Below are positions 10,634 through 32,257 of a stretch of 32,257 nucleotides of DNA, one piece after another. Position 1 is the stretch's first letter. Each line of letters starts with the position of its first letter. The translations under genes and the position numbers were made by a program. The notes beneath the pieces are model-generated. The model was not told the origin of the DNA, made no database searches, and saw only the letters and a program-made list of their open reading frames with translations. Origin of the DNA: Nitrospirales bacterium (GTDB lineage Bacteria > Nitrospirota > Nitrospiria > Nitrospirales > UBA8639); NCBI GenBank assembly GCA_021604365.1, contig BQIZ01000021.1, positions 1-32,257 of the forward strand, read 5' to 3'.

Positions 10634-10709
10634 TAAGCGATTGTTCTGGAAGGCGGGGTACTCCGAGCAGGTGAGGCGCGTAGCCAGTGTGCACCCAAAA
10701 ATTACCAGG

Positions 10710-10726
10710 AGCGCATCCCCTGCGCT
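10710..10726 (+). promoter_or_regulatory. Small hairpin between the ATPase and permease genes
   Basis: AGCGCA (10710-10715) and TGCGCT (10721-10726) form a 6-bp stem around a TCCCC loop in the 150-base gap between the two ABC genes. No T-run follows, so it is not an intrinsic terminator. It may set relative expression by RNA processing, but this is speculative. Confidence 0.3.
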
Positions 10727-10791
10727 TCTGAGAGACCGGTGGCGGAGAATTAAAGGGACTGAAAGACGTATTCGTGAGTGAAGGAGGAATT

Positions 10792-11529: not shown

Positions 11530-11577
11530 GGGAATGCCAAGGGGTCGGGTGTGAACTTTTGCTAATGAGGAGTGATG

Positions 11578-13503: not shown

Positions 13504-13561
13504 GACGCTCGCGATTATCAGAAGGCCGCATCAGATTATTCAAGAATATTAAGGGAAGCGA

Positions 13562-16050: not shown

Positions 16051-17166
16051 ATGAACAAAATTTCTCAAGATGACAAAGGCAAGAAGGACAGTGGTCCGTT
16101 ATTATCCATACAGGGAATAACCATTTCTATTGTTGTTCCTGTGTACAACGGGGGTGAGCCCTTTCGTCAATGCCTGATGAGCCTGGTTGCTTTAGAACCT
16201 CCTCCCATGGAAATAATCGTTGTCGCCGATGGTGAATCCGATGGATCCTGGCAAGTGGCGAAACAGTTTGGTGCCCAAGTCATTCGACTTCCGACCACTT
16301 CTGGGGGACCGGCACAGCCCAGAAACATTGGGGCACTTCAGGCCAAAGGCGAATATCTTTTCTTTGTCGATGCCGATGTGTGTGTGCATCCGGATACTTT
16401 GCGACAGGTGGCAGAAACGTTTCATTTTAATCCGGACCTCACTGCATTGATCGGATCGTACGATGACACTCCTGCCGAAAAAAACTTTTTATCCCAATAC
16501 AAAAATCTCTTTCACCATTATGTCCATCAACATGCCCAAAAGGAGGCTTCCACCTTTTGGGGGGCTTGCGGGGCCATCCGCCGTGATATTTTCTTGGAAA
16601 TAGGTGGGTTTGACGAAAAATATCGACGTCCTTCAATTGAAGACATTGAGTTAGGATATCGATTGAAAAAGGCTGGTCACAAGATTCGGTTGTGTAAAGA
16701 TATCCATGTCAAACATTTGAAACGATGGGGTATCTGTTCAATGCTCAAAGCAGACTTTTTTTACCGCGCAATCCCTTGGACAGAGTTAATCCTTCGAGAT
16801 CGCAGGTTTACGAATGACTTAAACATCCGGCATTCCGAGCGCCTTTGTGTCGTATTGACGTATGGGCTTGTGGGAGCACTGCTGGGATCGGTCTGGTGGG
16901 TTTCATTGCTGGGAGTGGCGGCGGTGATCATGGTTTCGCTCGTGATCATCAATGCTCCACTTTATCGCTTCTATCTAAACAAACGTGGGATTCGATTTGC
17001 CCTGCAGAGTGTTCCCTGGCATTGGCTGTACTACCTGTATAGCGGCTTGGCGTTTGCTATAGGCCTGGCACGACATGTTTTTTGTGGGGGCAACCGGAAG
17101 GGGTCGACAAAGCCGGCTCTTGTCCATGAACCCTTCGACACCTTCAGGAAGTCAGGGGGGCAGTAG
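16051..17166 (+). CDS. GT2-family glycosyltransferase with membrane C-terminus
   Basis: This 371-residue enzyme has a GT-A domain. It opens with ISIVVPVYNGGEPFRQCL (about 25-42), has IIVVADGESDG (55-65), the metal/nucleotide-sugar DxD in VDADV (107-109), the acceptor-side GACGAIRRDIF and GGFDEKY, and the EDIELGYRL catalytic-base motif. Hydrophobic helices occupy about residues 270-310 and 325-350, so it is membrane-bound and probably uses a lipid-linked or membrane acceptor. It is the first gene of the cluster. Its TAG stop overlaps the GTG start of the flavoprotein by one base, which implies joint function. The sugar donor cannot be told from the sequence. Confidence 0.9.
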   Translation: MNKISQDDKGKKDSGPLLSIQGITISIVVPVYNGGEPFRQCLMSLVALEPPPMEIIVVADGESDGSWQVAKQFGAQVIRLPTTSGGPAQPRNIGALQAKGEYLFFVDADVCVHPDTLRQVAETFHFNPDLTALIGSYDDTPAEKNFLSQYKNLFHHYVHQHAQKEASTFWGACGAIRRDIFLEIGGFDEKYRRPSIEDIELGYRLKKAGHKIRLCKDIHVKHLKRWGICSMLKADFFYRAIPWTELILRDRRFTNDLNIRHSERLCVVLTYGLVGALLGSVWWVSLLGVAAVIMVSLVIINAPLYRFYLNKRGIRFALQSVPWHWLYYLYSGLAFAIGLARHVFCGGNRKGSTKPALVHEPFDTFRKSGGQ

Positions 17167-19004
17167 TGGCATCCCATCCTGTCGTGGTGATTGGTGCGGG
17201 TCCAGCTGGTCTCACGGCGGCCTATGAGTTGGGGAAAAACAGTTCTTCCTCCCTCATCCTTGAGGCCGGGAAACAGGTAGGTGGTATATCGCAAACCGTC
17301 AATTATCGAGACTTCCGTTTTGATATCGGTGGCCACCGATTTTTCTCCAAAGTGCCGATGGTGACTGAGTTATGGAATGAAATCCTCGGTGACAACTTTC
17401 TCCTTCGACCTCGGATAAGCCGAATCCATTACAACCAGCATTTTTTTGACTATCCGCTGAAGGCCACCAATGCGTTGGCCGGACTGGGAGTCGTTGAGGC
17501 CCTCCTGGTCTGTTTCAGTTATGCCAAGACCAAGGTGTTTCCAAATGCCCAAGAGGATAATTTTGAACAATGGGTCATCAATCGTTTTGGATATCGCCTA
17601 TATCAGATATTTTTCAAAACCTACACGGAAAAGGTCTGGGGAATTTCCTGTACCGAGATATCCGCCGATTGGGCCGCGCAACGAATCAAAAACCTTTCTT
17701 TGAAAGAAGCGGTTCGCAATGCTCTACTTGGTCAAAGGGGTGGGAAGAAGGGTGAAATCGTGACCTCGCTCATTGAGCAGTTTCATTACCCTCGCCTGGG
17801 ACCGGGGATGATGTGGGAACGGTGCGAAGAATTGGTGGCTGGTTTTGGATCTCAGACATTAAAAGGCATTAAAGTCGAGCGTATCCGGCATCGCCATGGC
17901 CTGGTAGATTGTGTTTCCGGGCGAGCATCATCAGGGGAACATGTAGAATTCGAGGGCAGCGATTTTGTGTCGACGATGCCTCTTCGCGAGTTAATCGAGG
18001 CCATGGACCCTCAACCCCCTGCGAAGGTCGTGGAGGCTGCCCTTGGTCTGCGGTATCGGGATTATTTAACCGTGGTCCTGGTGGTTAACTGCGAGGACGT
18101 ATTCCCTGATAACTGGATCTATATCCATTCACCTGAAGTCAAAATGGGACGAATACAGAATTATAAAAATTGGAGCCCGTACATGGTGCCGGATCCCTCA
18201 CGGACTTCCCTGGGCCTTGAGTATTTTCTCTGGGACAAAGACGATGAATGGACATGGTCGAACGACCGGTTAATCGAATTCGGTACACGGGAATGTGCGC
18301 AACTCGGGCTCATTAATCCCCGCGATGTTGAAGACGGAACCGTGGTTCGTATGGAAAAGGCCTATCCGGTTTACGATCATCACTATCAGGATCATGTCCG
18401 GACGATTCGAGAGTATCTGGAAACATTTTCAAATCTTCAGACCATTGGACGAAATGGCCTGCATCGCTATAACAACCAGGATCATTCCATGGTAACAGGA
18501 GTGTATGCCGCGAGAAACATCATGGGTGAAACGCATCATGATGTATGGGCGGTCAATACGGAAAAGGAATACCATGAGGAGGGCCGTGCGACTTCGGTCA
18601 ATGTCGGCGATCGAATGGTGCCGATGCGGGTTAAGGAATACGTCGATGAACTTCCCATGGAAAACGAAGAAGAATTAATCGAGATTGTATTTGCCAAACT
18701 GGACCCTGTCGCTTTGGGTGTGGCTGTCGGTACCGTGAGCGGCCTCCTCATCTTGATCGGGACTGTAATTCTGGTTCTCAAAGGAGGACCGGTAGTGGGG
18801 CCAAACTTGTCTCTGCTTGGGAATTTTTTAATTGGATTTCAAGTGACATGGGGTGGTTCTCTTGTAGGTTTCCTAGAGGGAGGAATCGGGGGGTTTGCGA
18901 TAGGATACTCAGGAGCCTCACTCAGAAACTGGAGCATGAAGGCCTATGCGCAATTCATCCGGTGGCGAGAGGAAGCGAATCGTCGTCGTAATCTTCTAGA
19001 TTAG
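17166..19004 (+). CDS. UDP-galactopyranose mutase-like flavoprotein with membrane tail
   Basis: This 612-residue protein begins with a dinucleotide-binding fold, VVVIGAGPAGLTAAYEL (GAGPAG at 10-15), then LEAGKQVGGISQT and FDIGGHRFFSK. This pattern is shared by UDP-galactopyranose mutases and protoporphyrinogen-oxidase-like amine oxidases. EKVWGISCTEISADWAAQRI and a late FAD-binding segment (RYNNQDHSMVTGVYAARNI) support this. After about residue 510 comes a roughly 100-residue extension with two hydrophobic helices, absent from ordinary members. It is homologous to the next gene's product. The gene starts at GTG and overlaps the glycosyltransferase stop. It is probably a FAD enzyme acting on a nucleotide sugar or lipid-linked sugar at the membrane. 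The reaction is not determined, and UGM activity itself is uncertain. Confidence 0.85.
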   Translation: MASHPVVVIGAGPAGLTAAYELGKNSSSSLILEAGKQVGGISQTVNYRDFRFDIGGHRFFSKVPMVTELWNEILGDNFLLRPRISRIHYNQHFFDYPLKATNALAGLGVVEALLVCFSYAKTKVFPNAQEDNFEQWVINRFGYRLYQIFFKTYTEKVWGISCTEISADWAAQRIKNLSLKEAVRNALLGQRGGKKGEIVTSLIEQFHYPRLGPGMMWERCEELVAGFGSQTLKGIKVERIRHRHGLVDCVSGRASSGEHVEFEGSDFVSTMPLRELIEAMDPQPPAKVVEAALGLRYRDYLTVVLVVNCEDVFPDNWIYIHSPEVKMGRIQNYKNWSPYMVPDPSRTSLGLEYFLWDKDDEWTWSNDRLIEFGTRECAQLGLINPRDVEDGTVVRMEKAYPVYDHHYQDHVRTIREYLETFSNLQTIGRNGLHRYNNQDHSMVTGVYAARNIMGETHHDVWAVNTEKEYHEEGRATSVNVGDRMVPMRVKEYVDELPMENEEELIEIVFAKLDPVALGVAVGTVSGLLILIGTVILVLKGGPVVGPNLSLLGNFLIGFQVTWGGSLVGFLEGGIGGFAIGYSGASLRNWSMKAYAQFIRWREEANRRRNLLD

Positions 19005-19038
19005 CTATAAACAAGAGGCAGTGTCCTGGAGGGAAGAT

Positions 19039-19347
19039 ATGGGAACGGATTCCAAGAGTAATGAAGAGCTTAGCCGGGTTGTGGCCAAAATTCAGGGAGG
19101 GGTATTGGCAGTGGTTTGTGGGCTAATGGGTGGATTAGGGCTTTTTATCATGACGATTTGGCTTCTGCTCGAAGGCGGCGAACAGGTTGGATCCCACCTT
19201 CAGTTACTTTCTAACTTTTTCATTGGGTATTCAGTCACGTGGAAAGGGAGTCTGCTAGGCCTTTTTTACGGAGCACTCACTGGTGGGGTTCTGGGTTGGA
19301 CCATCGGGTTTATTTATAACAGAGTGGTGGGAATCCGAGGACGGTAA
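19039..19347 (+). CDS. Small membrane protein homologous to the flavoprotein tail
   Basis: The 102-residue protein consists of a short polar start, a hydrophobic helix (about 20-44), a loop EGGEQVGSHLQLLSNFFIGY and a second glycine-rich helix (about 70-93). It aligns end to end with the C-terminal extension of the preceding flavoprotein, sharing GG..VG..L.LL.NF.IG..VTW.GSL.G with the same spacing. The ATG at 19039 is chosen over a GTG at 19021 because GGAGGG (19028-19033) lies 5 bases before it. It sits 34 bases after the flavoprotein stop, so it is cotranscribed. It could form a heteromeric membrane unit with the flavoprotein tail. I know no assigned function. Confidence 0.85.
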   Translation: MGTDSKSNEELSRVVAKIQGGVLAVVCGLMGGLGLFIMTIWLLLEGGEQVGSHLQLLSNFFIGYSVTWKGSLLGLFYGALTGGVLGWTIGFIYNRVVGIRGR

Positions 19348-20042: not shown

Positions 20043-20885
20043 GTGATAAACGAAGGTGCGACCTACTGGGAATCCATAGCAGACGAATGGAAAAAGACAC
20101 GCCCGGATCAGCTCTGGAGAAAACATAGTGATACGGTTAATCAGTCCCTTCTTCTCCGTTGGCTTCCCGAACACCCATCTCCTCGGTTGCTAAAGACTGA
20201 TACGTTTGACGAAGCGGTGGGAGGGGGGCTTATTCAATTCCTGAAGACACGTGCTCACAAGATCGTTGGAATGGATCTCTCATTCCAGAATGTGCAATTG
20301 GCCTGTCCTAGGGATATGAGCATTCGTGGAGCATGCGCAGATGTGCGTCATCTTCCTTTCGGAGAGGAATCGTTCGATGTGGTGGTGTCCAATTCCACCT
20401 TGGACCATTTCCAAACCCTCGATGAGATCATTGTGAGTTTGCGGGAATTGCACCGGGTGCTTCGCAAAGACGGGCAGCTAATCCTGACATTGGACAATCC
20501 TGCTAATCCCATTATTGCCGCGCGTAACATTCTTCCATTCAAATTATTAAACCGGTTGGGTATTCTTCCCTACTATGTTGGAGCCACCTGTGGTCCCTGG
20601 CGATTACAGAAGTTGCTGCGGGAAATAGACTTCGAGGTGAGAGAGGTCACGGCAGTGCTTCATTGCCCGCGTATCTTCGCCGTACTCGCCGCCAAGCTCT
20701 TGTGCTCCTGCGCGAAGGGTTCTGTGCAACAACGATTTTTGCGTTGGCTGGAGGCATTTGAACATCTGTCGCGCTGGCCCACGCGGTATGTGACAGGGAA
20801 CTTTATTGCTGTCAGAGCTGAAAAAATAAATCCATCCGAGCGGGGTGTACCGAGATTAAATGATTTTTCTACAGAATGTTTGTGA
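20043..20885 (+). CDS. Class I SAM-dependent methyltransferase (MT1)
   Basis: This 280-residue protein has a Rossmann-type methyltransferase core: a motif I region (LLKTDTFDEAVGGGL, about 49-63), an acidic strand end (IVGMDLS, D78), motif II-like ADVRHLPFGEESFDVVVSNSTLDH (about 99-122) and LRELHRVLRKDGQLILTLDNPAN. Motif I departs from the common VLDxGCGxG: K-T-D-x-F-D-E stands in its place, a variant that I believe defines a recognised subgroup. The C-terminal 100 residues contain a hydrophobic stretch (IFAVLAAKLLCSC). The start is a GTG with AGGGA about 9 bases upstream. It heads the ligase/acyltransferase part of the cluster. The substrate is unknown. Confidence 0.85.
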   Translation: MINEGATYWESIADEWKKTRPDQLWRKHSDTVNQSLLLRWLPEHPSPRLLKTDTFDEAVGGGLIQFLKTRAHKIVGMDLSFQNVQLACPRDMSIRGACADVRHLPFGEESFDVVVSNSTLDHFQTLDEIIVSLRELHRVLRKDGQLILTLDNPANPIIAARNILPFKLLNRLGILPYYVGATCGPWRLQKLLREIDFEVREVTAVLHCPRIFAVLAAKLLCSCAKGSVQQRFLRWLEAFEHLSRWPTRYVTGNFIAVRAEKINPSERGVPRLNDFSTECL

Positions 20886-20991
20886 GTCGCGTCGTATGGG
20901 CGAACCTGGTTGGGCAGCGAGGCATTATTATTGCGCCCACGTTTTGTTGAATGAAAACAGAAGTAAGAGAAGAGACGCCGCATTATAACGA

Positions 20992-22293
20992 ATGATGTTG
21001 TTAGACGGATGGAAAACTTTTCGGTTAATTCGACAAGCTCTGGCTTCCAGTCGGTGGAGCCTGGTGGATCTACGTCAGGTACAGGAGGAGCGGATTCGGA
21101 TGCTCCTCAATCATGCCTACCATAACGTTCCACTCTATCGAAGGCTTTACAAGGAGGCGGGTTATCACCCTGAGGAATTTCGTTCTTTGGATGATATAGG
21201 GGAAATACCTATTCTTCAAAAGAATCGTCTCAAGCAAGCAAGTCCGGAGGAAGCTGTTGCACAGGGGATTGATCCACGTCAATGTGGAGTCGTTGAAACG
21301 AGCGGTTCGACAGGAACTCCCTTGCGGATCTTTCTTGGAGCCACAGATCAGCAGTGGCAGCGGGTGGTTGCCTGGCGCATTCTTTTCGAACATGGTTTCC
21401 GCTGGACTGACCGCACGCTTGAAATTCGCATGACTTTTGGTCGGCAGTTTTTCGTCCAACGGCTTGGTATCGCTCCAAAAGATTGGTGTTCGATTCTTGA
21501 CCCACCAGAGTTCTGGGCACAACGCATGGTTAAGACGAGGCCGGACGTGATCGTTGCAGGGGCAGGTACGCTGCATGCCTTGGCGGAAACTGTCCAAACG
21601 CTGGGGCTCAAGCTGCCCGCGCCCCGACTCATCGTCTCCGATAGTGAAACCCTCTCGCCGGCCACTCGCCAACTGGTTCGGGGTGCGCTCGGAAGGGATC
21701 CTGTCGATGTGTACGGGTTGGTTGAGCTTTCGAATTTCGCGTGGGAGTGCGAGCGTCGTTCTGGATTTCACGTAAGCGCTGATAGCCACATTGTGGAGGT
21801 TGCTGCGGATTCAGGGGAGCCTGGCCCAATCATCACCACAGCATTAGGCATGTGGACCATGCCGATGATTCGCTATGAAACAGGAGACCTAGCTGAGGTT
21901 GAAACCACACTATGTCCTTGTGGGCGCACTCTTCCTCTTCTTAGACGAATCTATGGACGCAGGGTAGATTCAGTCGCTTTGCAAGACGGCAGGCGAATCT
22001 TCTGGCCATTTTTTCACGAGGTCCTGGGGCGCTATGACGAGTTACGTCAGTGGAGAATTTTGCAAGATGAGATAAACGAAGTCCATCTCCAAATCGTTGT
22101 GCCCAATAGCGCTCACGGTCTTCTTTCGAAGATAGAATCGGATTTTCAAGCTGTCTTGCCTGGTGAAGTCCATCTGCGCGTTGAGCGAGTCGAAGCGATC
22201 CCGTTTAGCCCGGGAGAGAAGACCAGGATGATCATCTCGAAGGTTGGGACTGCAAATGAGCAACATCCTGACTCCGTGGGGCAAGAGCACTAG
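20992..22293 (+). CDS. PaaK/CapK-like adenylate-forming ligase 1
   Basis: This 433-residue protein of the phenylacetate-CoA ligase-like superfamily would activate a carboxylic acid with ATP. Visible motifs are the phosphate loop SGSTGTP (104-110), YGLVE (241-245), RYETGDL (294-300) and the catalytic lysine in GEKTR (K410). A Cys pair CPCGR (308-312) with WECERR (251-256) resembles the metal-binding cysteines of PaaK-like proteins. It lacks a fused carrier or thioesterase domain. The FEHGFRW segment (132-138) is shared with the next gene. The ATG is one base before the ATG at 20993-20995 set; two adjacent ATGs (20992 and 20995) are possible. It ends directly against the next start. The substrate is not predictable by eye. 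Confidence 0.88.
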   Translation: MMLLDGWKTFRLIRQALASSRWSLVDLRQVQEERIRMLLNHAYHNVPLYRRLYKEAGYHPEEFRSLDDIGEIPILQKNRLKQASPEEAVAQGIDPRQCGVVETSGSTGTPLRIFLGATDQQWQRVVAWRILFEHGFRWTDRTLEIRMTFGRQFFVQRLGIAPKDWCSILDPPEFWAQRMVKTRPDVIVAGAGTLHALAETVQTLGLKLPAPRLIVSDSETLSPATRQLVRGALGRDPVDVYGLVELSNFAWECERRSGFHVSADSHIVEVAADSGEPGPIITTALGMWTMPMIRYETGDLAEVETTLCPCGRTLPLLRRIYGRRVDSVALQDGRRIFWPFFHEVLGRYDELRQWRILQDEINEVHLQIVVPNSAHGLLSKIESDFQAVLPGEVHLRVERVEAIPFSPGEKTRMIISKVGTANEQHPDSVGQEH

Positions 22294-23634
22294 ATGGAAA
22301 TTCTTCGAACATGGAAGTACCTAATGGATCTGAGGTCGAACGTCACACGCTCTCCTGCAAATCTCAGATGGTTGCAAGATCGTTTGTTCCGCGACGCTAT
22401 CATCCATGCCTACGACAACGTCCCCTTTTACCGGCGTGTTTGGGACGAAGCGGGTGTAGATGTCCAAGCCATTCGAGGCATTCAAGATCTGGATCGAATT
22501 CCAATCATCACCGCTCCCCTGGTGCGAGAATCTGCAAGACTTGGTGAGTTGCTGGCGCGGGGAGTGGACACCTCATCCTGCACTTATCTTGAGACAAGCG
22601 GCTCATCAGGTGCAGCACTACGGATTTGGAAACGGCCGCTCGAGGAACGGGTGCGAAGAGCCGTGGGACTGCGAATATGGTTTGAACACGGATTTCGTTG
22701 GCGCCATAACACGGCGCAATTTCAGATAAAGCCGGGTCCCTCGCACATACTGCAACACTTCGGTATTTCTCGGAAGACGTGGATCTCGACGGAACGATCC
22801 ATCGAGGACCAGTTGGCACAATTGTTGGAGGCAAAGGCTGATGTAGTGGTTGGAACGGCGACAGCCCTTCGCCGCATTGCGCGAGCGAGCGAGGCGGTTC
22901 AGGGCGCACTTAAACGGCCCCGTGTGGTGTTTTGCGCAGGAGAGCTGGTGGATGCTGAAACCCGTCAATTGGTCACCAGAGTCTTCGGCCGTGAACCGGT
23001 CGGGCTGTATGGCCAGACCGAGGTCGGGTATATCGCCTGGCAATGCGAACACCGTGGGTCGTTCCATGTGAATGCGGATACACATTTTGTTGAAGTATTG
23101 CGGGATGGGATACCGGCCCATCCGGGCGAATTAGGGACAATTGTCGTGACAGATTTGCGCGCCCGGACCATGCCACTCATACGTTACAACACGGCTGATC
23201 TGGCAATAGCTGCATCAGGTGGATGTTCCTGCGGCCGGCAACTGCCTCTGATGGGTTCAATTGAAGGGCGGGAACGAGCCTCAATTTTACTCGGAGACGG
23301 GCGTCTCCTTACAACCCGAAAGATACTTGACCACCTCGCGGGAACACTCCGCCTCGGAGAGTTCCGCCTGTACCAGGAAAGCCTAAAGAAGTTTCGGCTC
23401 GAGCTCACCTGCCACGCCCTCGTCGGCCATCCAGGGATCGAGGACGTAGACCCCGGTTCGCATGTCCATCTGACTATTCTGGGTCATCTACGAAAGCTCC
23501 TTGGTGAGGTCGATCTATCAATCAGGATTGTTCAGGCATGGCCGGCAGATGGCACGGGAAAGACTCATGCAATCTTTTCGGGGGTCAATCTCAATGAGGA
23601 TTCTCTCAGAGACACCACGGGAGCGGCGTCTTGA
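22294..23634 (+). CDS. PaaK/CapK-like adenylate-forming ligase 2
   Basis: This 446-residue paralogue of the preceding ligase starts at the base after its stop. Motifs are TSGSSG (101-106), YGQTE (239-243), RYNTADL (297-303), CSCGR (311-315) and the lysine in GTGKTH (K423). The residue after the threonine of the 'TGD' motif is Ala rather than Gly, unlike the other two ligases in the window, which may alter activity. The FEHGFRW segment (130-136) is identical to that in ligase 1, pointing to tandem duplication followed by divergence. Like ligase 1 it is a stand-alone enzyme and presumably cytoplasmic. The GNAT gene follows after a 97-base gap. Confidence 0.88.
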   Translation: MEILRTWKYLMDLRSNVTRSPANLRWLQDRLFRDAIIHAYDNVPFYRRVWDEAGVDVQAIRGIQDLDRIPIITAPLVRESARLGELLARGVDTSSCTYLETSGSSGAALRIWKRPLEERVRRAVGLRIWFEHGFRWRHNTAQFQIKPGPSHILQHFGISRKTWISTERSIEDQLAQLLEAKADVVVGTATALRRIARASEAVQGALKRPRVVFCAGELVDAETRQLVTRVFGREPVGLYGQTEVGYIAWQCEHRGSFHVNADTHFVEVLRDGIPAHPGELGTIVVTDLRARTMPLIRYNTADLAIAASGGCSCGRQLPLMGSIEGRERASILLGDGRLLTTRKILDHLAGTLRLGEFRLYQESLKKFRLELTCHALVGHPGIEDVDPGSHVHLTILGHLRKLLGEVDLSIRIVQAWPADGTGKTHAIFSGVNLNEDSLRDTTGAAS

Positions 23635-23731
23635 AGCGCGACAATATCATGATTGTGTGGAAACTACGACAGAGGGAACCTTGCGACTGTGGTTGCGGCC
23701 AGTCGAAACAAAAACAGCGGGCACGGACAGG

Positions 23732-24895
23732 ATGAATCATTTAAAAAACATGATGATAGAGTGGGTCATCTCCCGCCTTTCCGGCAAGGCACAAACCTTG
23801 ATTCCGCGATATGGTTTTTACGCGTGGGCGTGCCTGGGGTTACGAGGGGTCCCGGTTGCGTTGTTGAGGGGGCCCACCCTTCAATCCGGGCAAATTGGGA
23901 CACTATTGGTGGCGGGCCATGATCCCTGGGTTGCCTATTTGCCAAACAGGTTTTTCGTGGGGGAGCCGCAACGCGAGCTGGTAGGAAATGTGTCCTTACG
24001 GGACCTGCCGGCTCTGCTAGATCGCCTGCATGAAGCAGCCGATCTGACTATCGTTCGTGCAGACCGATTGTCAGCGGAAAAATTCTTCGGAAGAGACTAT
24101 CTCGCCGTTCCTGAATGGATTGACATGCGGCTCGCCGTTCCTGGGGATCTCGATGAGTTGGTGCGTAGGAATCGAAGTATCCGCGAGGATATGCGTCTGG
24201 TCCGCAAACATCAGTTGCAGCCATTGGTCACCGAAGGGGAGGAGCGATTTGACGAGTTTTTTGATTCCATGTACGTCCCTTTCTCGAGAGACCGTCACGG
24301 AACCATGGCCATCATCAAAGGCCGGCAGGAATTGCGGCGCTTTATCCGAAAAGGGGGAATCCTCTGGGTTATGAGAGATCATCAGCCACTTGCGGGTGTT
24401 CTCTATGAACGAAATCAGGACACATTTAACCTTTTGGCCATAGGCATGGCTTCGGGTGAACTCCCGCTGAAAAAAAGAGGAATTATGGCCGCGCTCTACT
24501 ATTACAGCATCCAGCATGCCCGCCAGTCGGGGTTTGCTGAGGTAAATTTTAGAGCCGCTCGGTCTTCCCTGCATGACGGATTGCTTCGCTATAAACGAAA
24601 ATGGGGAAATGCTCTGTTTGACAATCCTAATTCGTATTTTGATCTGATGATCCGTTGGAATAGCGTAAACGGCGTAGTGAAGGACTTTTTCTCTCACACG
24701 GGCCTTATCTTTCGGGACAATGGAGGCTTGTCTGCAATCCATGCGGACGAATCACAGAGTCGCCGATCTCTCTGGATTGAAGGGCTCCATCGGCTCTACC
24801 TCCTGACTGAGTCCGGTCGCCAACCGATGATAGATGAGGGAGTTCCCTTTAAGCGTAACCGGAGTCACACCCGATTCTCATCGACCCTTTCATGA
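23732..24895 (+). CDS. FemAB/BioF2-like GNAT acyltransferase 1
   Basis: The 387-residue protein has a variable N-terminal half and a GNAT-fold C-terminal half of the FemAB/BioF2-like type. This includes RNRSIREDMRLVRKHQL (about 147-162), MYVPFSRDRHG (180-190), LAGVLYERNQDTFNLLAIG and the closing segment SLHDGLLRYKRKWGNAL (279-295). It closely resembles the product at 28956-30260 along its length. The open frame extends upstream to 23501 and would overlap the ligase gene by 134 bases. I chose the ATG at 23732 because the resulting N-terminus matches the paralogue in length. It probably transfers an acyl or aminoacyl group to an amine; donor and acceptor are unknown. Confidence 0.82.
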   Translation: MNHLKNMMIEWVISRLSGKAQTLIPRYGFYAWACLGLRGVPVALLRGPTLQSGQIGTLLVAGHDPWVAYLPNRFFVGEPQRELVGNVSLRDLPALLDRLHEAADLTIVRADRLSAEKFFGRDYLAVPEWIDMRLAVPGDLDELVRRNRSIREDMRLVRKHQLQPLVTEGEERFDEFFDSMYVPFSRDRHGTMAIIKGRQELRRFIRKGGILWVMRDHQPLAGVLYERNQDTFNLLAIGMASGELPLKKRGIMAALYYYSIQHARQSGFAEVNFRAARSSLHDGLLRYKRKWGNALFDNPNSYFDLMIRWNSVNGVVKDFFSHTGLIFRDNGGLSAIHADESQSRRSLWIEGLHRLYLLTESGRQPMIDEGVPFKRNRSHTRFSSTLS

Positions 24896-24911
24896 TGCTT
24901 GAGGAAGCATC
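24894..24911 (+). terminator. Hairpin at the stop of GNAT 1
   Basis: GATGCTT (24894-24900) and AAGCATC (24905-24911) form a perfect 7-bp stem around GAGG, starting within the stop codon. No T-run follows, so it is at best a weak or factor-dependent terminator or an mRNA 3' stabiliser. Confidence 0.35.
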
Positions 24912-24996
24912 GAGGGCCCTATCAACATTCCCCACTTTGGGCCGATGATCAGTAAGGATACCTGTTGTGACGAGATACGAGGTTCAAAAAAATCCT

Positions 24997-25025
24997 TTGC
25001 CTAGAGAATTGTTTCTGACTATAGG
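24997..25025 (+). promoter_or_regulatory. Candidate sigma-70 promoter for asnB
   Basis: TTGCCT (24997-25002) and TATAGG (25020-25025) are separated by 17 bases, with an A-tract just upstream that could act as an UP-like element. It stands about 110 bases before the asnB ATG in the largest gap of the ligase/acyltransferase part. Each box matches consensus at 4 of 6 positions. Confidence 0.35.
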
Positions 25026-25135
25026 AATGCGCTGTAACCAGCCGTTAATTTGAAACCCATCAACTAGGACCCGGACCAAACGCATTTTACCGAGGGTTGG
25101 CTAGTGATACGCGACACACAAGAGTAGGAGTACCT

Positions 25136-27025
25136 ATGTGCGGATTGTGCGGCGTGGTGTATTCCGATCCCAAGAGGCCGGTCAATCGGGATATGCTTCA
25201 TCATATGACAAACATGTTGTCCCATCGTGGACCGGATGGGAATGGGTACTTTGTTAAACCGGGTATCGGTCTCGGCTTCCGTCGACTGAGCATCATTGAT
25301 TTGGAAACCGGCGATCAGCCCATTTCCAACGAGGATAATTCTGTCACCGTTTTATGTAATGGAGAGATCTACAATTATAAGGAATTGCGTCAGGATCTAG
25401 AGGCTGCAGGTCATCGTTTCAGGACACATTCGGATGTCGAAGTCATTGTCCATTTGTACGAGGATTATGGGGTGCGTTGTGTAGATTTTCTGAGAGGCAT
25501 GTTTGGCTTCGCCATTTGGGATTCCCGGTATCGCCGTCTCATGTTGGCCAGAGATCGGTTCGGTATCAAACCTCTCAGCTATGCCATCAAACCCGATGCT
25601 CTGCTTTTTGGATCGGAGTTGAAGTCCATCCTTGCAAGCGGGTGTATTGACCGTCAGGTTGATGCCGGTGCCATGAAGGAGTTGTTTGCGGTCGGATTTG
25701 TTCAAGCGCCCAAGACCCTCTTGTGCTCAATACGGCGGCTCCCACCCGCGCATTATCTCCTCCATGAAAACGGGAAGATCACGATCCAGCGTTATTGGGA
25801 TCTCTCCTTTCCATCATTGGGTGAGGAAGGCTTTCAACGAAGCGCCCAGGAATGGGCCGAGGCGGTTCGGGATAAACTTGAAGAGTCCGTTCGCCTCCAC
25901 CTCCGGAGCGATGTGCCATTAGGTTGTTATTTGAGCAGTGGAATCGATTCAAGTGCTATGGCGGGATTGATGAGCCGAGAAATCTCAGATCCTATCCACA
26001 CTTTTTCTGCGGCGTTTGAAGATCCGTTGTTTAATGAGATTGGTCCGAATAGGATTCTCACAGATTTCTCGGGCTACAATCTCAGCAATCACATTACCAC
26101 CTGCAGAACCGCCGATTTTGATCTGTTGCCGGATATGATTTGGCATCGCGAAGATCCCAATATCTCATCGGGGGGCATCCCTCATATGTTGCTCGCCAGG
26201 ATAGCGGCGCAGCAGGTGAAAGTCGTCTTGACCGGGGAGGGCTCGGATGAAATATTCGGGGGCTACCCTTGGTACCGTGTTGAGCGGTTGCTTGAACCAT
26301 TCATCAATCTTCCACTCAGTGTGCGCCAACTCATCGCAAACATCCCCTTCCTGAGGAAAAAATATTCTCGATCAAGCCGGGCATTCGCCTCCCACGCCAC
26401 GATGGATCTGTCTCGATACACCCGCATCATCGATAATGCCTCCCACCGAAGTTACGAGGATCTTTTTTCCGATCACCTTAGCAACATCCATAGTTCGTTC
26501 AACGATTCAGAACCGCATTTCTTTCTTCCGAAGGATTTTGAAGGATGGAATCGTTTTGTTCAATTACAGTATTTGGATATCAATGTACGTCTTTCGGACT
26601 TTATTACGAGAACCCTCGATGCCGCCTCCATGGCTTATGGCCTAGAGGCACGTGTGCCATTCCTCGATCATGAATTTGTCGAATTATGCAGCCAGATTCC
26701 CTCCGACTTAAAAATGCGAGGGCTTCAGGAAAAGCATATTCTTCGACGGGCCCTGGAAGGTGTCTTGCCTGAGGAAATTCTGAAAAGAAAGAAAAGGGGG
26801 CTTTCCGCCCCATTCTGGCCATGGCAGGGTCGTTTGCCGGAATTTGTCGCAGACGCTCTGTCCGAAAGCAGGCTCCACACCAAAGGGTATTTCAATTCTC
26901 ATACTGTTCGACACATGCTTCAGCAACATCAAAACGGCAAGGCGAATTTTGGAAGAGAGTTAATCGGTGTCCTGAATATTCAATTATGGGATGACCTATT
27001 TGTCCAAGGGTGCCGTCCGTCGTGA
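25136..27025 (+). CDS. asnB: AsnB-type glutamine-hydrolysing amidotransferase
   Basis: The 629-residue protein starts MCGLCGVV, placing the nucleophilic Cys2 of the class II glutaminase directly after Met. RGPDG (31-35) and CNGEIYN (74-80) are glutaminase-domain motifs. The synthetase domain shows the pyrophosphate loop SSGIDSS (267-273), TGEGSDEIFGGY and LEARVPFLDHEFVEL. The upstream frame is open to 25097, but the ATG at 25136 is required for Cys2 and is preceded 5 bases away by TAGGAG. It could make asparagine. Given its neighbours it more likely amidates a carboxylate in the cluster's product, as AsnB homologues do in many glycan and peptide clusters (inference). It overlaps ligase 3 by 4 bases (GTGA). 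Confidence 0.93.
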   Translation: MCGLCGVVYSDPKRPVNRDMLHHMTNMLSHRGPDGNGYFVKPGIGLGFRRLSIIDLETGDQPISNEDNSVTVLCNGEIYNYKELRQDLEAAGHRFRTHSDVEVIVHLYEDYGVRCVDFLRGMFGFAIWDSRYRRLMLARDRFGIKPLSYAIKPDALLFGSELKSILASGCIDRQVDAGAMKELFAVGFVQAPKTLLCSIRRLPPAHYLLHENGKITIQRYWDLSFPSLGEEGFQRSAQEWAEAVRDKLEESVRLHLRSDVPLGCYLSSGIDSSAMAGLMSREISDPIHTFSAAFEDPLFNEIGPNRILTDFSGYNLSNHITTCRTADFDLLPDMIWHREDPNISSGGIPHMLLARIAAQQVKVVLTGEGSDEIFGGYPWYRVERLLEPFINLPLSVRQLIANIPFLRKKYSRSSRAFASHATMDLSRYTRIIDNASHRSYEDLFSDHLSNIHSSFNDSEPHFFLPKDFEGWNRFVQLQYLDINVRLSDFITRTLDAASMAYGLEARVPFLDHEFVELCSQIPSDLKMRGLQEKHILRRALEGVLPEEILKRKKRGLSAPFWPWQGRLPEFVADALSESRLHTKGYFNSHTVRHMLQQHQNGKANFGRELIGVLNIQLWDDLFVQGCRPS

Positions 27026-28386
27026 GATGCACGAGTGTGTTGGCCTCCAATCCTGTGTCCACGCTCTATTCCATGCTTCGCCATCCGCATGTCGGACAGG
27101 AGCAGCTTGTGGCCTTTCAAAACGAACGGGTTTGCCGGTTGGTCGCACATGCCTATCGCCATGTGCCCTATTACCGTGGGCTCTTTGATCGACATGGACT
27201 GAAACCCCAGAATATCCGAACGGTCGAGGATTTGGGGGCCGTGCCCATCACCTCGAGGAGTGATTTGCAAGCCTTGCCGGTCGATGAAATCATCGCCCGG
27301 AATGTGGACCCGGGGTCTTTGATCACACGCACCTCCAGCGGGTCCTCCGGGCGACCATTTGTTGTGCGCCGCACTTGGCTGGAGGAACGCCTTCATGGGG
27401 CCTTTCGGTGGCGTGCGCTCCACGCGTTGGGCCTCCGTTCGAGCGACAAGATTTGTTATGTGATGGGGAACTGGAATATCCAACGGCAGGACCAGGTCGC
27501 CAAGCGTATCCTGGACACCCTCGGGATGGCCCGGCGAAAGGTCATTGATGCCCTGCAGCCACCGGAGGACATTGTCCAGGCTCTGCAGAAGTTCAAACCT
27601 ACGGTCGTGGGGGGGTATCCCGGCGTGTTGGCCAGGATTGCGCAGACTGTGAATTGCGACGTACTACGGTCTCTTCGACTCCGCTTTGTGAATCCCGGTG
27701 GAGAAGTTCTGACACCACTCATGCGCCAACAGATTCAGGACGGGTTTTCCGCGCCAGTCTATGAAACGTATGGAAGTATCGAATTTTACCTTCTGGCCTG
27801 GGAATGCCCAACAACCGGGGAATATCACTCATGTGACGATGGCTTAATTATCGAAGTGCTGCGGGATGGGGCTCCGGCGGGTGAAGGAGAGAGGGGAGAG
27901 CTTGTTGGAACCGACTTGCATTCGTTTGCGATGCCGCTGATCCGATACCAGCTCGGCGATGTCGTCACAAAGGGAAGCCAAACCTGTCGATGCGGACAAC
28001 CGTTTTCGACGATTCGATCGATCCAGGGACGTATGATCGATTACTTCGTGCTTCCCGGCGACAGGGTTGTCCATCCCTATGAGTTGGGGGTCAGAAAGGT
28101 CCCCTGGATTCGAGAGTTTCAAGTGACCCAGGAACGCTTGGAATTCATCGTGATGAAAGTCGTCCCGTTTCATACACCCTCCGCCCAGGAGATGGCAGCG
28201 TTGGTTCAACCGGTGATGGCGTTGCTGGGATCGGACGTGCAGTTCCAGGTAGTGTTGGTGGACACAATCCCGAGAGAGGCAAACGGGAAATTTCGGGTAT
28301 ATCGTTCCCATATTCGATCGGCTTATGACGCATTTGCGTGGCCGGATCAAAAAATGGTTCCTCCTGGAGTCAATGACGACTGCTAA
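27022..28386 (+). CDS. PaaK/CapK-like adenylate-forming ligase 3
   Basis: This 454-residue ligase has SSGSSGRP (105-112), YGSIE (250-254), RYQLGD (308-313), CRCGQ (322-326) and the lysine in EANGKFR (K423). It is more distant from ligases 1 and 2 than they are from each other: it lacks the FEHGFRW segment and has FRWRALHALGL instead. The GTG at 27022 forms a 4-base GTGA overlap with the asnB stop; a GTG at 27010 in the same frame is the alternative. The coupling to AsnB suggests the two act on the same compound. The C-terminus is longer than in the other two and ends in a cysteine. Confidence 0.87.
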   Translation: MRCTSVLASNPVSTLYSMLRHPHVGQEQLVAFQNERVCRLVAHAYRHVPYYRGLFDRHGLKPQNIRTVEDLGAVPITSRSDLQALPVDEIIARNVDPGSLITRTSSGSSGRPFVVRRTWLEERLHGAFRWRALHALGLRSSDKICYVMGNWNIQRQDQVAKRILDTLGMARRKVIDALQPPEDIVQALQKFKPTVVGGYPGVLARIAQTVNCDVLRSLRLRFVNPGGEVLTPLMRQQIQDGFSAPVYETYGSIEFYLLAWECPTTGEYHSCDDGLIIEVLRDGAPAGEGERGELVGTDLHSFAMPLIRYQLGDVVTKGSQTCRCGQPFSTIRSIQGRMIDYFVLPGDRVVHPYELGVRKVPWIREFQVTQERLEFIVMKVVPFHTPSAQEMAALVQPVMALLGSDVQFQVVLVDTIPREANGKFRVYRSHIRSAYDAFAWPDQKMVPPGVNDDC

Positions 28387-28442
28387 TTCTCATGACGATA
28401 GTGCGGTGGATAAGGAACACCAGGTGACTTTTGCTTACACCC

Positions 28443-28800
28443 TATCATGAAATCTTTAAGAAACGCGGATATCTCAATCATCAAGCGATGACGATGTCTC
28501 CTCAGGCACGTATTGAAGAGCCTGGTCATGATGTCCGCATAGGCCGACATGAAGGACAGAGGGGTTGTCTGCAAGGCCTCATCGGGTGATGATTACGTGA
28601 AAATCTTTTTCGATCGCGGCGACTCTCCTTCATATCGAAACGTCCGAGATGTTTGCTGATCTCTGTGGACGGGTTCAGTCTTGCTGCGTTGCACCATCTC
28701 GATGAAAACGAACGGTTCATTATGGAGCCGTATCGAGCGTCACGAAGCGGAGACACCTTAACGATTGCCGAGGAGATGGGTTGCTCCGGTCATCCACCGG
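28443..28800 (+). pseudogene. Decayed SAM methyltransferase, paralogue of MT2
   Basis: Pieces in different frames match the methyltransferase at 30265-31011 in order. YHEIFKKRGYLNHQAM (from 28443) matches EYRAIFKKRGHLYHQAM. LLHIETSEMFADLC (from 28628) matches ALCHIETSDVFAALC. FSLAALHHLDENERF followed by EPYRASRSGDTLTIAEE (about 28671-28790) matches SLAALHHVDEKDRF with EAYRMLRKGGTLTIADV. The stretch between the second and third pieces is missing about 27 codons. A TGA closes the first frame, and a one-base loss explains the shift before the second piece. No intact reading frame spans it. It lies between ligase 3 and GNAT 2. Confidence 0.85.
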
Positions 28801-28955
28801 GTACCAATAACCGGGATGCCCTACAGGTATTATGGTTGAAAATCCAAACACATGCAGCGGGCATCGTTTTCGGTTTATAGAACAGGAACGCCGGTGCCGT
28901 CGCCCCTGTTTTCTTGAGGTTGGTCCTCGGAGAAATGAGTCTCTAAGAGTTGGAA

Positions 28956-30260
28956 ATGGGCATGGCTAATCAAAAAATACCACGCTTCAACGACTGGGCG
29001 TGGTGGCTCTATGAGCATGCTCCAGCCGGCCTGGACCATGCAGCCAAGAGATGTGCCCCGTGGGTCTTGCCATGGGTTGCGCTTCGCGTACCTGTGGCTA
29101 TTCTGCGAGGGCCAACCAGACATTCCGAGCGATCGGCAATCATCGTAGTGGCCGGGCTTCAACCCTGGGCCGATTACCTGCCGCATCGCTTGTTTGCATG
29201 TGCGCCTCGGCGAGAGCTCGTTGGAGCCGTGCCTGTATGGGCTCTTCCTTCGTTCCTAAAACGTTTGGCTGTCGATGCGGACATAATTGTCGCGCGCGTC
29301 GATCGTGTCTCTGCCCGCCTCTTCTTCGAAGACGGTTATCTTGTGGTTCCCGAAAGCCTCGGCTGCCGACTGTCATTGCCGGTCGATCTTGACAAACTTG
29401 CACGTGCCAGCCGCAGCGTAAAGGAAGATTTGGGTACGCTCCGGCGTGAGGGTTTCACGATGGAGGTCTCACACAGGGAGGCAGACTGCGAGGTGTTTTA
29501 CTCATCGATGTATCTTCCCTTCGTCCAGAAGCGGCACGGAGAGTTCGCCGTGATCCATAACTTGCATCAGCTCCGTCGAAAGTTTCGTCGTGGGGGGCTC
29601 ATCTGGTTGCGGCGGGGCGATCATCGCATTGCCGCGGCGCTGTTTGAGCAGGAAGGTGACGTCTTCCGTGGAGTGGCTTTGGGCACAAAAGGGGGGGATC
29701 TCACGTTGATGAAGCAGGGCGCCCTTGCGGCACTCTACATTTTCGAAATCAAGTGCGCCGAAGAGGGGAGATGTGCAAGCATTGATTTCGGTGGCACCCC
29801 GCCGGTTCTCAATGACGGACTTCTTCGCTTCAAGAGGAAGTGGGGAGTCCAGCTCATGGATGAACACCAGACTCCCTATGACTATTTGGTCCGGTGGGAA
29901 CGACCAAATGAGCAGGTCCTCGAATTCCTTGCTGATGTGCCGTTAATTTTCAAGAACCACGGTCACCTGGCGGGGCTGACTGCTCTCAGGCTCAATGGCG
30001 TAGCCCACCAGGTCCAAGCGTCTATGATGCATCGTTCGTTGTGGATCGCAGGGCTGCAGCGACTCTTTGTGGCGGTGCCAACCGGATGTGGTTTACAGGA
30101 GATGGGTGCGCTTCCCAGCCAGAACAGAGGCGGGATGTCTTCTGTTGGCGGGACGGAATTCTGCAATGTTGAACGGATTCTTTCTACGTTAGGGGGGAAT
30201 CAGCGGACATCGTCAAAATCGCATGGAAATCCCGCGGTGGGCAAAAAGAATACGAGGTGA
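28956..30260 (+). CDS. FemAB/BioF2-like GNAT acyltransferase 2
   Basis: The 434-residue paralogue of the product at 23732-24895 shares the same order of segments: VPVAILRGPT near residue 45, RASRSVKEDLGTLRREG, MYLPFVQKRHGEFAVI, then NDGLLRFKRKWGVQLMDE and RSLWIAGLQRLF. A C-terminal tail of about 50 residues rich in Gly, Ser and Asn is absent from GNAT 1. The frame is open to a TTG at 28950. ATG 28956 is preferred, with AAGAG 6 bases upstream, and ATG 28962 is also possible. By eye its base composition is more GC-rich than the Bat/Gld block. The stop falls 4 bases before the MT2 ATG. The donor and acceptor are unknown. Confidence 0.82.
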   Translation: MGMANQKIPRFNDWAWWLYEHAPAGLDHAAKRCAPWVLPWVALRVPVAILRGPTRHSERSAIIVVAGLQPWADYLPHRLFACAPRRELVGAVPVWALPSFLKRLAVDADIIVARVDRVSARLFFEDGYLVVPESLGCRLSLPVDLDKLARASRSVKEDLGTLRREGFTMEVSHREADCEVFYSSMYLPFVQKRHGEFAVIHNLHQLRRKFRRGGLIWLRRGDHRIAAALFEQEGDVFRGVALGTKGGDLTLMKQGALAALYIFEIKCAEEGRCASIDFGGTPPVLNDGLLRFKRKWGVQLMDEHQTPYDYLVRWERPNEQVLEFLADVPLIFKNHGHLAGLTALRLNGVAHQVQASMMHRSLWIAGLQRLFVAVPTGCGLQEMGALPSQNRGGMSSVGGTEFCNVERILSTLGGNQRTSSKSHGNPAVGKKNTR

Positions 30261-30264
30261 TTGC

Positions 30265-31011
30265 ATGTTTCCGGAATATCGCGCAATTTTCAAAAAACGG
30301 GGCCATCTATATCATCAAGCAATGATCCGGTACCCGAACGCTCGTGCAGAAGAATTTCTTCATATCGTCCGTATGGCCGACATGAAAGACGGAGATATCG
30401 TTTGTGATATTCCTTCCGGCGGTGGGTACTTAAGGCACTTTGTGGATCGGGCCACGGCTCTTTGCCATATCGAAACCTCAGATGTGTTTGCCGCTCTCTG
30501 CAGAGCGAATGGCGCTCACCACGTGTTGCTCTCAACTCTGAGGGATATTCCTGTCGCAACCGGGGCGGTGGATAAAATTATCAGTCTCGCGGCCTTGCAC
30601 CATGTGGATGAAAAGGATCGGTTCTTCTCTGAGGCTTATCGAATGTTAAGAAAGGGAGGGACGCTTACCATTGCTGACGTACAAGCGGGGTCGGCTGTTT
30701 CCGAATTTCTGGACGGTTTTGTCAACGAACACAATAGAATGGGACACAAAGGCACTTATATCTCCCCCAAAACTCAAGATGAGATCGAACGATGGGGATT
30801 TACTGTGAGGGATTCTTCGTTGATCCCCTTTCACTGGGATTTTGATTCTCCCCAGGCCATGGGACAATTTTCTCAACTGTTGTTCGGTATCGATAAAGCA
30901 GACTCTGCCCAGGTAGTAGAGGGTATCCGAAAGCACCTGGGCTATGTTCTCGACAGCAACGCGTGTCGCATGAATTGGGCGCTGTTATTCCTCAATGCAG
31001 AAAAGCCTTAG
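30265..31011 (+). CDS. Class I SAM-dependent methyltransferase (MT2)
   Basis: The 248-residue protein has a motif I DIPSGGGYLRHF (about 48-59), a strand end HIETSDVF (68-75), a SLAALHHVDEKDRFFSEAYRML core (107-128) and KGGTLTIADV (130-139), all typical of class I methyltransferases. The ATG at 30265 is preferred to one at 30223: GAGGTGA (30254-30260) lies 4 bases before it, and the N-terminus then matches the decayed copy at 28443. The gene follows the GNAT 2 stop directly and closes the cluster. It is unlike MT1 in sequence, so the two probably act on different groups. The substrate is unknown. Confidence 0.87.
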   Translation: MFPEYRAIFKKRGHLYHQAMIRYPNARAEEFLHIVRMADMKDGDIVCDIPSGGGYLRHFVDRATALCHIETSDVFAALCRANGAHHVLLSTLRDIPVATGAVDKIISLAALHHVDEKDRFFSEAYRMLRKGGTLTIADVQAGSAVSEFLDGFVNEHNRMGHKGTYISPKTQDEIERWGFTVRDSSLIPFHWDFDSPQAMGQFSQLLFGIDKADSAQVVEGIRKHLGYVLDSNACRMNWALLFLNAEKP

Positions 31012-31289: not shown

Positions 31290-32257
31290 ATGGCCGCTTT
31301 ACTCAGAGGAGGTGACGGCGTGGAGGTGCATCGAGAGTTGAGGGATGACAACCAACTCGTCTGCACGGTTGCTCGAGGTTCCGAAGTCATGGGGTGCGTC
31401 GTCGTAGACTCGACCGTATGTGGCGTCTCGCGAGGGGGGCTTCGCATGTCTACCAATGTGAGCGAAGCAGAAGTGCGTGGTCTGGCCCGTACCATGACAC
31501 TCAAGTGCGGATTCTTAAGACAACCACAAGGTGGCGCGAAGGCAGGCGTGCGTTTCAACTCGGAGGCTCCGCTCGCGGAACGCCGGCAGCACTTGGAAGC
31601 GTTTGGGCGAGCGATTGCTCCGCTTCTGATCAACCGCATCTTTATTCCCGGCCCTGATATGGGTACGAATGACACAGACATCCGCGCGATGCTCGATGCG
31701 GTTGGAGTGAAGCTCAAGTGGCGGGAATTGCGCGACACGCAATCGGGTCAGTACACGGCGGCGACCGTGTTCATCAGTGCTAAACGGGCGATCCAGCATT
31801 TGGGCTTGACGCTCCCTCGCTGTACGGTAGCCATTGAAGGCTTCGGCAAGGTGGGGAGTGCCTTGGCCAGCCTGTTGGACGAAGCCAATGCCAAGGTGGT
31901 GGCAATCTCCACCGCGAGGGGAGCGATTGTGAATCCGCATGGTCTGAATGTGAGGCAGCTCAACCAGTTCGCCGACCGGCACGGCAGCCGCGTCGTAGAT
32001 TATTATGCCGATGCCGAGCGTATTTCCTGCGCTGAATTGTTGGAGTTGCCCGTGGATCTGCTCTGCCCTTGTGCGACTCATCATAGTCTCCATGCCGACA
32101 ATGCTCCTCGAGTGCTCGCGCGACTCATCTGCCCCGGAGCCAACAACCCAGTGACGGCCGAAGCCGAGAATATTCTGTTTGAACGGGGACTGGTGTATCT
32201 TCCCGACTTTGTGGCCAACTGCGGCGGGATACTCGGGAGTACGATGGCCTTCGCCTC
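31290..32257 (+). CDS. Glu/Leu/Phe/Val-type amino-acid dehydrogenase (partial, cut by window end)
   Basis: At least 322 codons are open to the window edge. The product shows the family's substrate-binding and catalytic landmarks: STVCGVSRGGLRM (41-53), TMTLKCG with a lysine at 72, GGAKAGV with the catalytic-type K84, and GPDMGTND (121-128) with the aspartate D123. A nucleotide-binding GFGKVGS (184-190), then CPGANNPVT (281-289) and FVANCGG (308-314) follow. These features point to oxidative deamination of an amino acid, or reductive amination of a keto acid, with NAD(P). Glutamate versus leucine/phenylalanine specificity cannot be told. The ATG at 31290 has AAAGGG 7 bases upstream; a GTG at 31320 with AGGAGG (31307-31312) is an equally good start. 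The C-terminus lies beyond the window. Confidence 0.9.
   Translation, partial: MAALLRGGDGVEVHRELRDDNQLVCTVARGSEVMGCVVVDSTVCGVSRGGLRMSTNVSEAEVRGLARTMTLKCGFLRQPQGGAKAGVRFNSEAPLAERRQHLEAFGRAIAPLLINRIFIPGPDMGTNDTDIRAMLDAVGVKLKWRELRDTQSGQYTAATVFISAKRAIQHLGLTLPRCTVAIEGFGKVGSALASLLDEANAKVVAISTARGAIVNPHGLNVRQLNQFADRHGSRVVDYYADAERISCAELLELPVDLLCPCATHHSLHADNAPRVLARLICPGANNPVTAEAENILFERGLVYLPDFVANCGGILGSTMAFA

Follow-up and report, generated by a model that had tools for sequence, protein, structure and literature searches.

A candidate mobile decoration cassette with PaaK-type ligases, Fem-like GNAT proteins and an AsnB-type amidotransferase in a surface-glycan locus of Nitrospirales

The window analyzed here is the complete 32,257-base contig BQIZ01000021.1 (C21) of the 4.02-Mb, 303-contig assembly of a Nitrospirales bacterium (genome G000), and it carries a block of genes for stand-alone ligases, GNAT proteins, an AsnB-type amidotransferase and methyltransferases at 20043..31011. 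All genes that an earlier note had listed for this block (methyltransferases, three ligases, two GNATs, AsnB and a decayed methyltransferase gene, all on the + strand) were confirmed to be present. The block starts with the gene for the methyltransferase-like protein MT1 (20043..20885; PF08241, E 1.5e-15), followed by those for two stand-alone adenylate-forming ligases of the PaaK/CapK type, LigA (20992..22293; best PDB match phenylacetate-CoA ligase 4r1l, E 6.9e-25) and its paralogue LigB (22294..23634; 35% identity to LigA; 4r1l, E 2.3e-16). Next is GNAT1 (23732..24895), which according to a structure model is a Fem-type double-GNAT protein and a predicted aminoacyl transferase; the open reading frame (ORF) originally listed opens at 23501 and overlaps ligB, and we correct the start to, probably, 23732. 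The gene for the glutamine-hydrolyzing AsnB-type amidotransferase (TIGR01536) occupies 25136..27025 (the ORF opens at 25097, the MCG start is at 25136), and its end is overlapped by the start of the gene for the third PaaK/CapK-type ligase, LigC (27010..28386; 4r1l, E 2.4e-25). A decayed methyltransferase gene related to MT2 (28387..28949) was recognized by tblastn with MT2 and by blastn of the gap between genomes. The block is completed by GNAT2 (28956..30260), a paralogue of GNAT1 as judged from alignment, tree and reading frames, and by the S-adenosylmethionine (SAM) methyltransferase MT2 (30262..31011, with the listed ORF opening at 30223; PF08241, E 2.1e-12). When the window proteins were scanned with Pfam and NCBIfam models (E<=0.001, with a looser pass at E<=1), no PP-binding, polyketide synthase (PKS) or nonribosomal peptide synthetase (NRPS) domain was detected, and translation of the gaps between genes yielded no further convincing gene and no carrier protein, in agreement with the earlier note. 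Operon structure is read from gene order and gaps alone, because promoter- and terminator-like sites were no more frequent than in shuffled sequences.

Three core genes in the same orientation precede the block. They encode a GT2 glycosyltransferase with C-terminal hydrophobic stretches (16051..17166; PF00535, E 3.9e-28), a flavin adenine dinucleotide (FAD) protein with UDP-galactopyranose-mutase-like/amine-oxidase fold and a C-terminal extension of two transmembrane (2-TM) segments (17166..19004; NCBIfam PRK07208.1-4, NF005548, 693.7 bits at a cut-off of 389) and a small 2-TM protein (19021..19347) resembling the C-terminus of the FAD protein, its counterpart in genome G018 being 47% identical to residues 495-581 of the latter. 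As the nearest solved relatives of the flavoprotein are UDP-galactopyranose mutases (E 3.4e-24), a furanose or another rearranged sugar is a reasonable guess. The order GT2, flavoprotein, 2-TM protein, MT1, LigA, LigB, GNAT1, AsnB, LigC, (decayed methyltransferase), GNAT2, MT2 is shared with related genomes, where it is followed by genes for an SGNH/GDSL protein and a Wzx-type flippase, in some cases with glycosyltransferase genes in between. The full order was seen in G018 (a single contig rated 100% complete), G009 (likewise a single contig), G013 (rated 99%) and, there distributed over two contigs, G016. MT2 and the GDSL-Wzx pair are separated by about 2.1 kb including a broken dehydrogenase gene in G013 and by about 0.6 kb in G016, while the region downstream in G018 encodes GT2- and GT4-type glycosyltransferases, a Gfo/Idh/MocA oxidoreductase, a cytochrome P450, an SGNH/GDSL protein and a MOP/Wzx flippase (PF13440, E 4e-10). 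Alignment of 19 loci on the flavoprotein placed GT2 next to it in 18, and the 2-TM protein likewise occurs in 18 (17 by ORF label, that of G155 by tblastn); a Wzx relative was present in 12 of these core loci (partial in G133) and additionally in G016, with the fetched stretch or the contig ending early in several of the loci without a match. The contig under study itself ends before the point at which Wzx lies in its relatives. A Wzx/MOP flippase accompanied by glycosyltransferases, the combination by which a Wzx-dependent polysaccharide locus is recognized, is found in these relatives, and it is because of these genes on the longer contigs that we favor a surface glycan, made with the upstream GT2 and flavoprotein, among the products the earlier note had considered. 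A literature search returned no description of such a glycan locus in Nitrospira-type bacteria.

Conservation of the set as a unit, left as a question in the earlier note, is borne out both by this gene order and by co-occurrence in 395 Nitrospirota genomes. Any GNAT match was found in 16 of them and a GNAT1 match exceeding 400 bits in seven. MT1 (E<=1e-20) is present in eight, i.e. in all seven GNAT1 genomes and, with a 99-bit match, in G314. LigC relatives occur in 26 genomes at E<=1e-40 and in six at more than 500 bits, all six belonging to the GNAT1 genomes, and the flavoprotein occurs in 47 at E<=1e-100 and in 19 at more than 850 bits, again covering all seven. Close homologues of GNAT1, MT1 and LigC are nested in this way, and GNAT1 resides in a GT2-flavoprotein locus in seven out of seven cases. 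The probability of such overlaps arising by chance is <=2e-10 in a hypergeometric count that disregards the close kinship of several of the genomes; with the own genus collapsed to one, four lineages are represented (own genus, G400, G287 and G155). This co-occurrence led us to reject the view that the genes are chance neighbors. Within the genus, GNAT1 or GNAT2 is encoded in 8 of 20 genomes (the own one included), MT2 follows GNAT2 in G018, G013, G009, G016 and G003, and the cluster is present, in full or in part, in eight genomes (G000, G003, G008, G009, G013, G015, G016 and G018). Neither GNAT was detected when 16 genomes of the family's other genera were searched, and two genomes of the order gave weak matches.

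The cassette follows the GT2-flavoprotein-2-TM trio in the own genus and precedes it in G400, G287 and G155. The arrangement in G400 is MT1, two ligases, GNAT1, MurF-like ligase, AsnB, LigC, MT2, ATP-grasp protein, 123-aa ORF and GT2, and that in G287 is MT2-like, MT1, GNAT1, AsnB, LigC and GT2. The ATP-grasp protein and the stand-alone MurF-like ligase of the G400 cassette are encoded at L080:12359-13705 and 17833-19140. A decayed GNAT and a GT2 are present in G330. In G259, which belongs to another family, genes for AsnB, a MurF-like ligase, a PaaK-type ligase, a GNAT and a DegT-type aminotransferase are consecutive, the GNAT being 29% identical to GNAT1 and the MurF-like protein 33% identical to that of G400. 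GNAT and MT1 genes also occur back to back in all five GNAT-anchored loci from Planctomycetes. Here, the pair adjoins a secA gene in every case and a Kdo-transferase-type gene in three (L107, L108 and L110); in L107 genes for S-adenosylmethionine synthetase and for UDPGP- and GDP-mannose-pyrophosphorylase-type sugar-nucleotide enzymes follow the pair. LigB relatives were absent from three of the five Planctomycete genomes and represented by a single match each in the other two (88 and 19 bits). The idea of an obligatory MT1-GNAT pair in Planctomycetes holds only partly: four MT1-bearing genomes were found among 294 sampled, and in the three newly found ones the fetched stretches, one of them truncated by its contig end, contained no GNAT. 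The Planctomycete GNAT gene at L109 10001-10936 contains an in-frame stop and may be decayed or misread.

Turning to the individual proteins, the motifs that we take to be those of PaaK/CapK adenylation (P-loop, YGxxE, RYxxxD, CxCG and a C-terminal lysine) are intact in all three ligases. LigA, LigB and LigC thereby resemble PaaK, AjiA1 and BagE/FevW in sequence family and adenylation motifs but, unlike the named PaaK/CapK ligases, score below the cut-off of every NCBIfam model they match; the matches are to PaaK-type models. AsnB is by sequence a member of the glutamine-hydrolyzing AsnB family; it features an N-terminal cysteine (MCG start) and the synthetase motifs SSGIDS and GEGSDE, and it passes TIGR01536 with 475.4 bits (cut-off 267.1). 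The two GNATs share 37-39% identity, and GNAT2 sits on an old branch separate from GNAT1. Neither passed any Pfam or NCBIfam model at E<=0.001; the looser pass gave only matches below the cut-offs, to Acetyltransf_6 (0.15) and FemAB (0.28), and profile searches against PDB sequences returned nothing useful. As the family models give no pass, we identify these proteins through the structure model of GNAT1, which shows a tandem GNAT fold nearest to Fem-type aminoacyl-tRNA-dependent transferases, with streptothrisamine-acting peptide synthases as the closest folds. In the model, GNAT1 appears to share this fold with FemX/FemA, Sba18/Sbb17 and Orf11 of BD-12, from which the GNATs studied here differ in lacking a family-level sequence match. 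The earlier note had the GNATs transfer acids activated by the ligases. This part of its interpretation is not established, in contrast to unit conservation, which is supported, and the surface-glycan option, which is favored: because of the modeled similarity to aminoacyl-tRNA-dependent enzymes, amino acids on tRNA would be the likelier donor. The decayed gene is 39% identical to MT2 over 152 residues, with a second piece in a different frame. It is also decayed in all three relatives compared, and since the corresponding gaps align at 81-88% identity, the remnant probably decayed before these relatives split.

All genes of the cassette except the decayed one are open and under purifying selection. 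Ratios of nonsynonymous to synonymous substitution rates (dN/dS), computed for G000 against G013, G018 and G009, range from 0.10 to 0.30 for MT1, LigA, LigB, GNAT1, AsnB, LigC and MT2 and from 0.21 to 0.48 for GNAT2, with partial alignments used wherever a relative has a broken reading frame (GNAT2 in G013 and G018, MT1 in G018). GNAT2 is intact in the window, G009 and G016. The frame breaks may reflect either genuine decay or errors of assembly. Synonymous divergence (dS) points to exchange of the block. Between G000 and G018 it is 0.35-0.81 for 13 upstream genes and 1.12 for MT1 and then drops about three-fold, to 0.11-0.25, over the eight genes from ligA to a glutamate-dehydrogenase-family gene (GDH) at the contig end. 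The G013-G018 comparison gives 0.11-0.17 for GNAT1, AsnB and LigC versus 0.40-0.86 upstream, and G018 and G009 differ by 0.14-0.30 in upstream genes and block alike. A mis-joined contig could explain the values for G000-G018 but not those for G013-G018, because the latter are two near-complete assemblies. Judging from the low dS over the block relative to upstream genes in G000-G018 and, for three genes, in G013-G018, the cassette or parts of it probably moved between species. Such movement is common among surface-antigen genes.

On this basis, we consider it fairly probable that Nitrospirales use the block as a mobile, interchangeable cassette for decorating the product of a surface-glycan locus that depends on Wzx. 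For substrates, donors, order of steps and final structure we infer the following by analogy. GT2 and the UDP-galactopyranose-mutase-like flavoprotein would supply a sugar and place it on a membrane-bound carrier lipid. GNAT1, and GNAT2 where it is intact, would transfer amino acids onto sugar amines or onto a previously added amino acid, with aminoacyl-tRNA as the probable donor. The PaaK-type ligases may adenylate small carboxylic acids for use as additional acyl or amide substituents, while AsnB would convert a carboxylate, conceivably one in a uronic acid or in an acidic side chain, to the amide. MT2 and perhaps MT1 could then methylate a substituent, before the Wzx protein encoded at the far end of the locus flips the lipid-linked decorated unit.

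Several observations weigh against this proposal of a decoration cassette. Ligases and AsnB are accessory genes and perhaps do not serve a single pathway, because the G155 locus has MT1, two GNATs and GT2 but neither ligases nor AsnB and the five Planctomycete loci showed just MT1 and GNAT of the whole set; moreover, the two further ligases of G400 are just 25-31% identical to those of the window. A glycine-rich SAM-binding motif is usual in methyltransferases. MT1 and its relatives from Nitrospirota and Planctomycetes exhibit an invariant LLKTDxFDE in the alignment where this motif is expected, such that MT1 is only perhaps a working methyltransferase. MT1 in G018 and GNAT2 in G018 and G013 are either dispensable or misread there, because they are frame-broken. 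A Fem-like fold in a model does not prove use of aminoacyl-tRNA. The signal of exchange is also uneven: in G013-G018, clearly low dS is limited to GNAT1, AsnB and LigC and is less or not reduced for LigA, LigB and GNAT2 (0.38-0.39), MT2 (0.26) and GDH (0.52), and in the closest pair, G000-G013, dS of the block (0.08-0.34; GDH 0.57) is not lower than that upstream (0.10-0.24; 2-TM protein 0.52). As to the glycan part, no Wzy polymerase was recognized among the proteins scanned, which comprise a subset of the ORFs, the 11 scanned proteins downstream in G018 include no CE4 deacetylase, and a full Wbp set did not appear among the window genes and these 11 proteins, a genome-wide search not having been made.

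The strongest competitor is a tiny NRPS-independent cluster that produces a small amide or N-acyl amino acid for secretion and merely adjoins the glycan locus. Stand-alone adenylating ligases, Fem-like transferases, AsnB and methyltransferases are all known from natural-product clusters, the block is exchanged between species, and one relative has two extra ligases, of the MurF-like and the ATP-grasp kind. The folds nearest to the GNAT1 model are also those of streptothrisamine-acting peptide synthases, and GNAT enzymes of this kind are described in PMC12945691. We nevertheless regard a secreted product as rather unlikely, given that no dedicated exporter, regulator or carrier protein was recognized in the block, that GT2 and the UDP-galactopyranose-mutase-like flavoprotein adjoin it, as does Wzx in relatives, and that the MT1-GNAT pair of L107 resides beside Kdo-transferase-type, UDPGP- and GDP-mannose-pyrophosphorylase-type genes.

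The closest described logic is that of the Wbp/Vim linking-sugar pathway (VimA, VimE, WbpS and WbpA/B/D/E). VimA is responsible for serine or glycine on a sugar amine and WbpS makes a uronamide (PMC7468200). The product of the cassette could, by the same token, be a linking sugar that bears an amino acid and fixes secreted proteins to the cell surface via a non-exosortase system, as the Wbp/Vim sugar does in type IX secretion. The two would share a GNAT-family protein with a proposed role in aminoacylating a sugar amine and an AsnB-type uronamide maker, in a membrane-linked surface-glycan context. Unlike Wbp/Vim, the present cassette combines three PaaK ligases with two GNATs and two methyltransferase-like proteins and is not accompanied by a known protein-anchoring system. 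Neither a VimE-type deacetylase nor WbpA/B/D/E was seen among the scanned window genes and the 11 downstream proteins of G018. With no Wbp set seen in the locus, protein anchoring strikes us as improbable.

Gene combinations of a similar kind are found in exosortase loci, and VimA-related and AsnB-type genes have been noted there (PMC7468200). Loci of the XrtA/XrtW systems likewise contain genes for an AMP-forming ligase, a FemAB-like protein and AsnB near glycosyltransferases. They differ from the locus analyzed here by the nearby exosortase, the ligase family (TIGR03098 is not among the models matched by the window ligases), the AsnB score (530 bits for TIGR03108, the XrtA-system amidotransferase, at a cut-off of 817) and the GNATs, which fall outside TIGR03019 (FemAB), a model with no match in the window and one sub-cut-off match elsewhere in the genome. 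The exosortase family PF09721 was detected in 10 of 17 genomes searched, including three of the eight cluster-bearing ones (G003, G009 and G015), and was not found in the other five (G000, G008, G013, G016 and G018). Distant GNAT relatives in G391, five in tandem (L096 6525-12233), lie near exosortase W, a TIGR03098-like ligase and AsnB. Because of this location, the ligase-GNAT-AsnB toolkit is, by sequence comparison, common to exosortase loci and the kind of locus described here. That the block itself is an exosortase/PEP-CTERM exopolysaccharide locus or its remnant, with the missing genes just outside the window as the earlier note had considered, is hardly tenable and largely contradicted in spite of the G391 arrangement, the AsnB score and the exosortases in three genomes, since none was found in five cluster-bearing genomes including the near-complete G018 and G013, since in G009 exosortase (2.26 Mb) and cluster (3.56 Mb) are 1.3 Mb apart, and since AsnB, ligases and GNATs differ from the exosortase-type families.

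Returning to the decoration cassette, we tentatively put forward a wider proposal, which is possible rather than probable: an NRPS-free, mix-and-match amide-assembly system in Nitrospirota could extend a lipid-linked surface sugar by a short substituent of peptide-like or acyl-amide character. Its parts would be PaaK ligases, Fem-type GNATs and AsnB, joined in some lineages by ligases of the MurF-like and ATP-grasp kinds; it would be traded as a block and may yield a protein-anchoring amino-acid-bearing sugar or a variable surface antigen without an exosortase. If the decoration-cassette reading is right, the amino-acid-on-sugar and amide chemistry of type IX cargo anchoring, which is suspected in exosortase systems, would extend to a separate, horizontally exchanged glycan locus, with PaaK-type ligases as an addition to the Wbp/Vim logic. 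The locus offers a defined gene set in which one can ask which donors Fem-type GNATs use and what stand-alone PaaK ligases do in glycan loci. Nitrospira-type bacteria are known as nitrite oxidizers living in flocs and biofilms, and GNAT1, MT1 and LigC could serve as genomic markers for a surface trait that varies among close relatives.

Apart from the cassette, several further features deserve mention. The GDH gene (31290..32255, + strand; PF00208, E 1.8e-41) is cut by the contig end and probably lies outside the cassette unit; its membership is not favored, as it is split over two frames in G013 and has no match in the MT2-bearing contig of G016. An 86-aa ORF at 19479-19739 is not favored as a gene either, having no match in G018 or G009 and evolving fast relative to G013. 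At the other end of the contig, positions 2-418 encode a small PF19588 (SxtJ-family) protein, a Pfam name that does not imply toxin synthesis; in G018, the neighbor of this protein is a NodU-like carbamoyltransferase (L033:8572-10440). Genes of the MoxR/DUF58/VWA/BatD type, followed by those for a gliding-type ABC transporter and an auxiliary protein, are found at 2347-14752 in an order that is kept in the genus. The cytochrome P450 encoded in the locus's glycan section (L031:9171-10553 in G018) also occurs in G009 and G003 (a 95-residue partial match in the latter); it resembles terpene-type P450s and is unusual in a polysaccharide locus. A second glycan locus of G000 (contig C2, L160 7579-15281) encodes a DegT aminotransferase and a Wzx-type flippase together with a sub-cut-off FemAB match and a partial AsnB-like protein.

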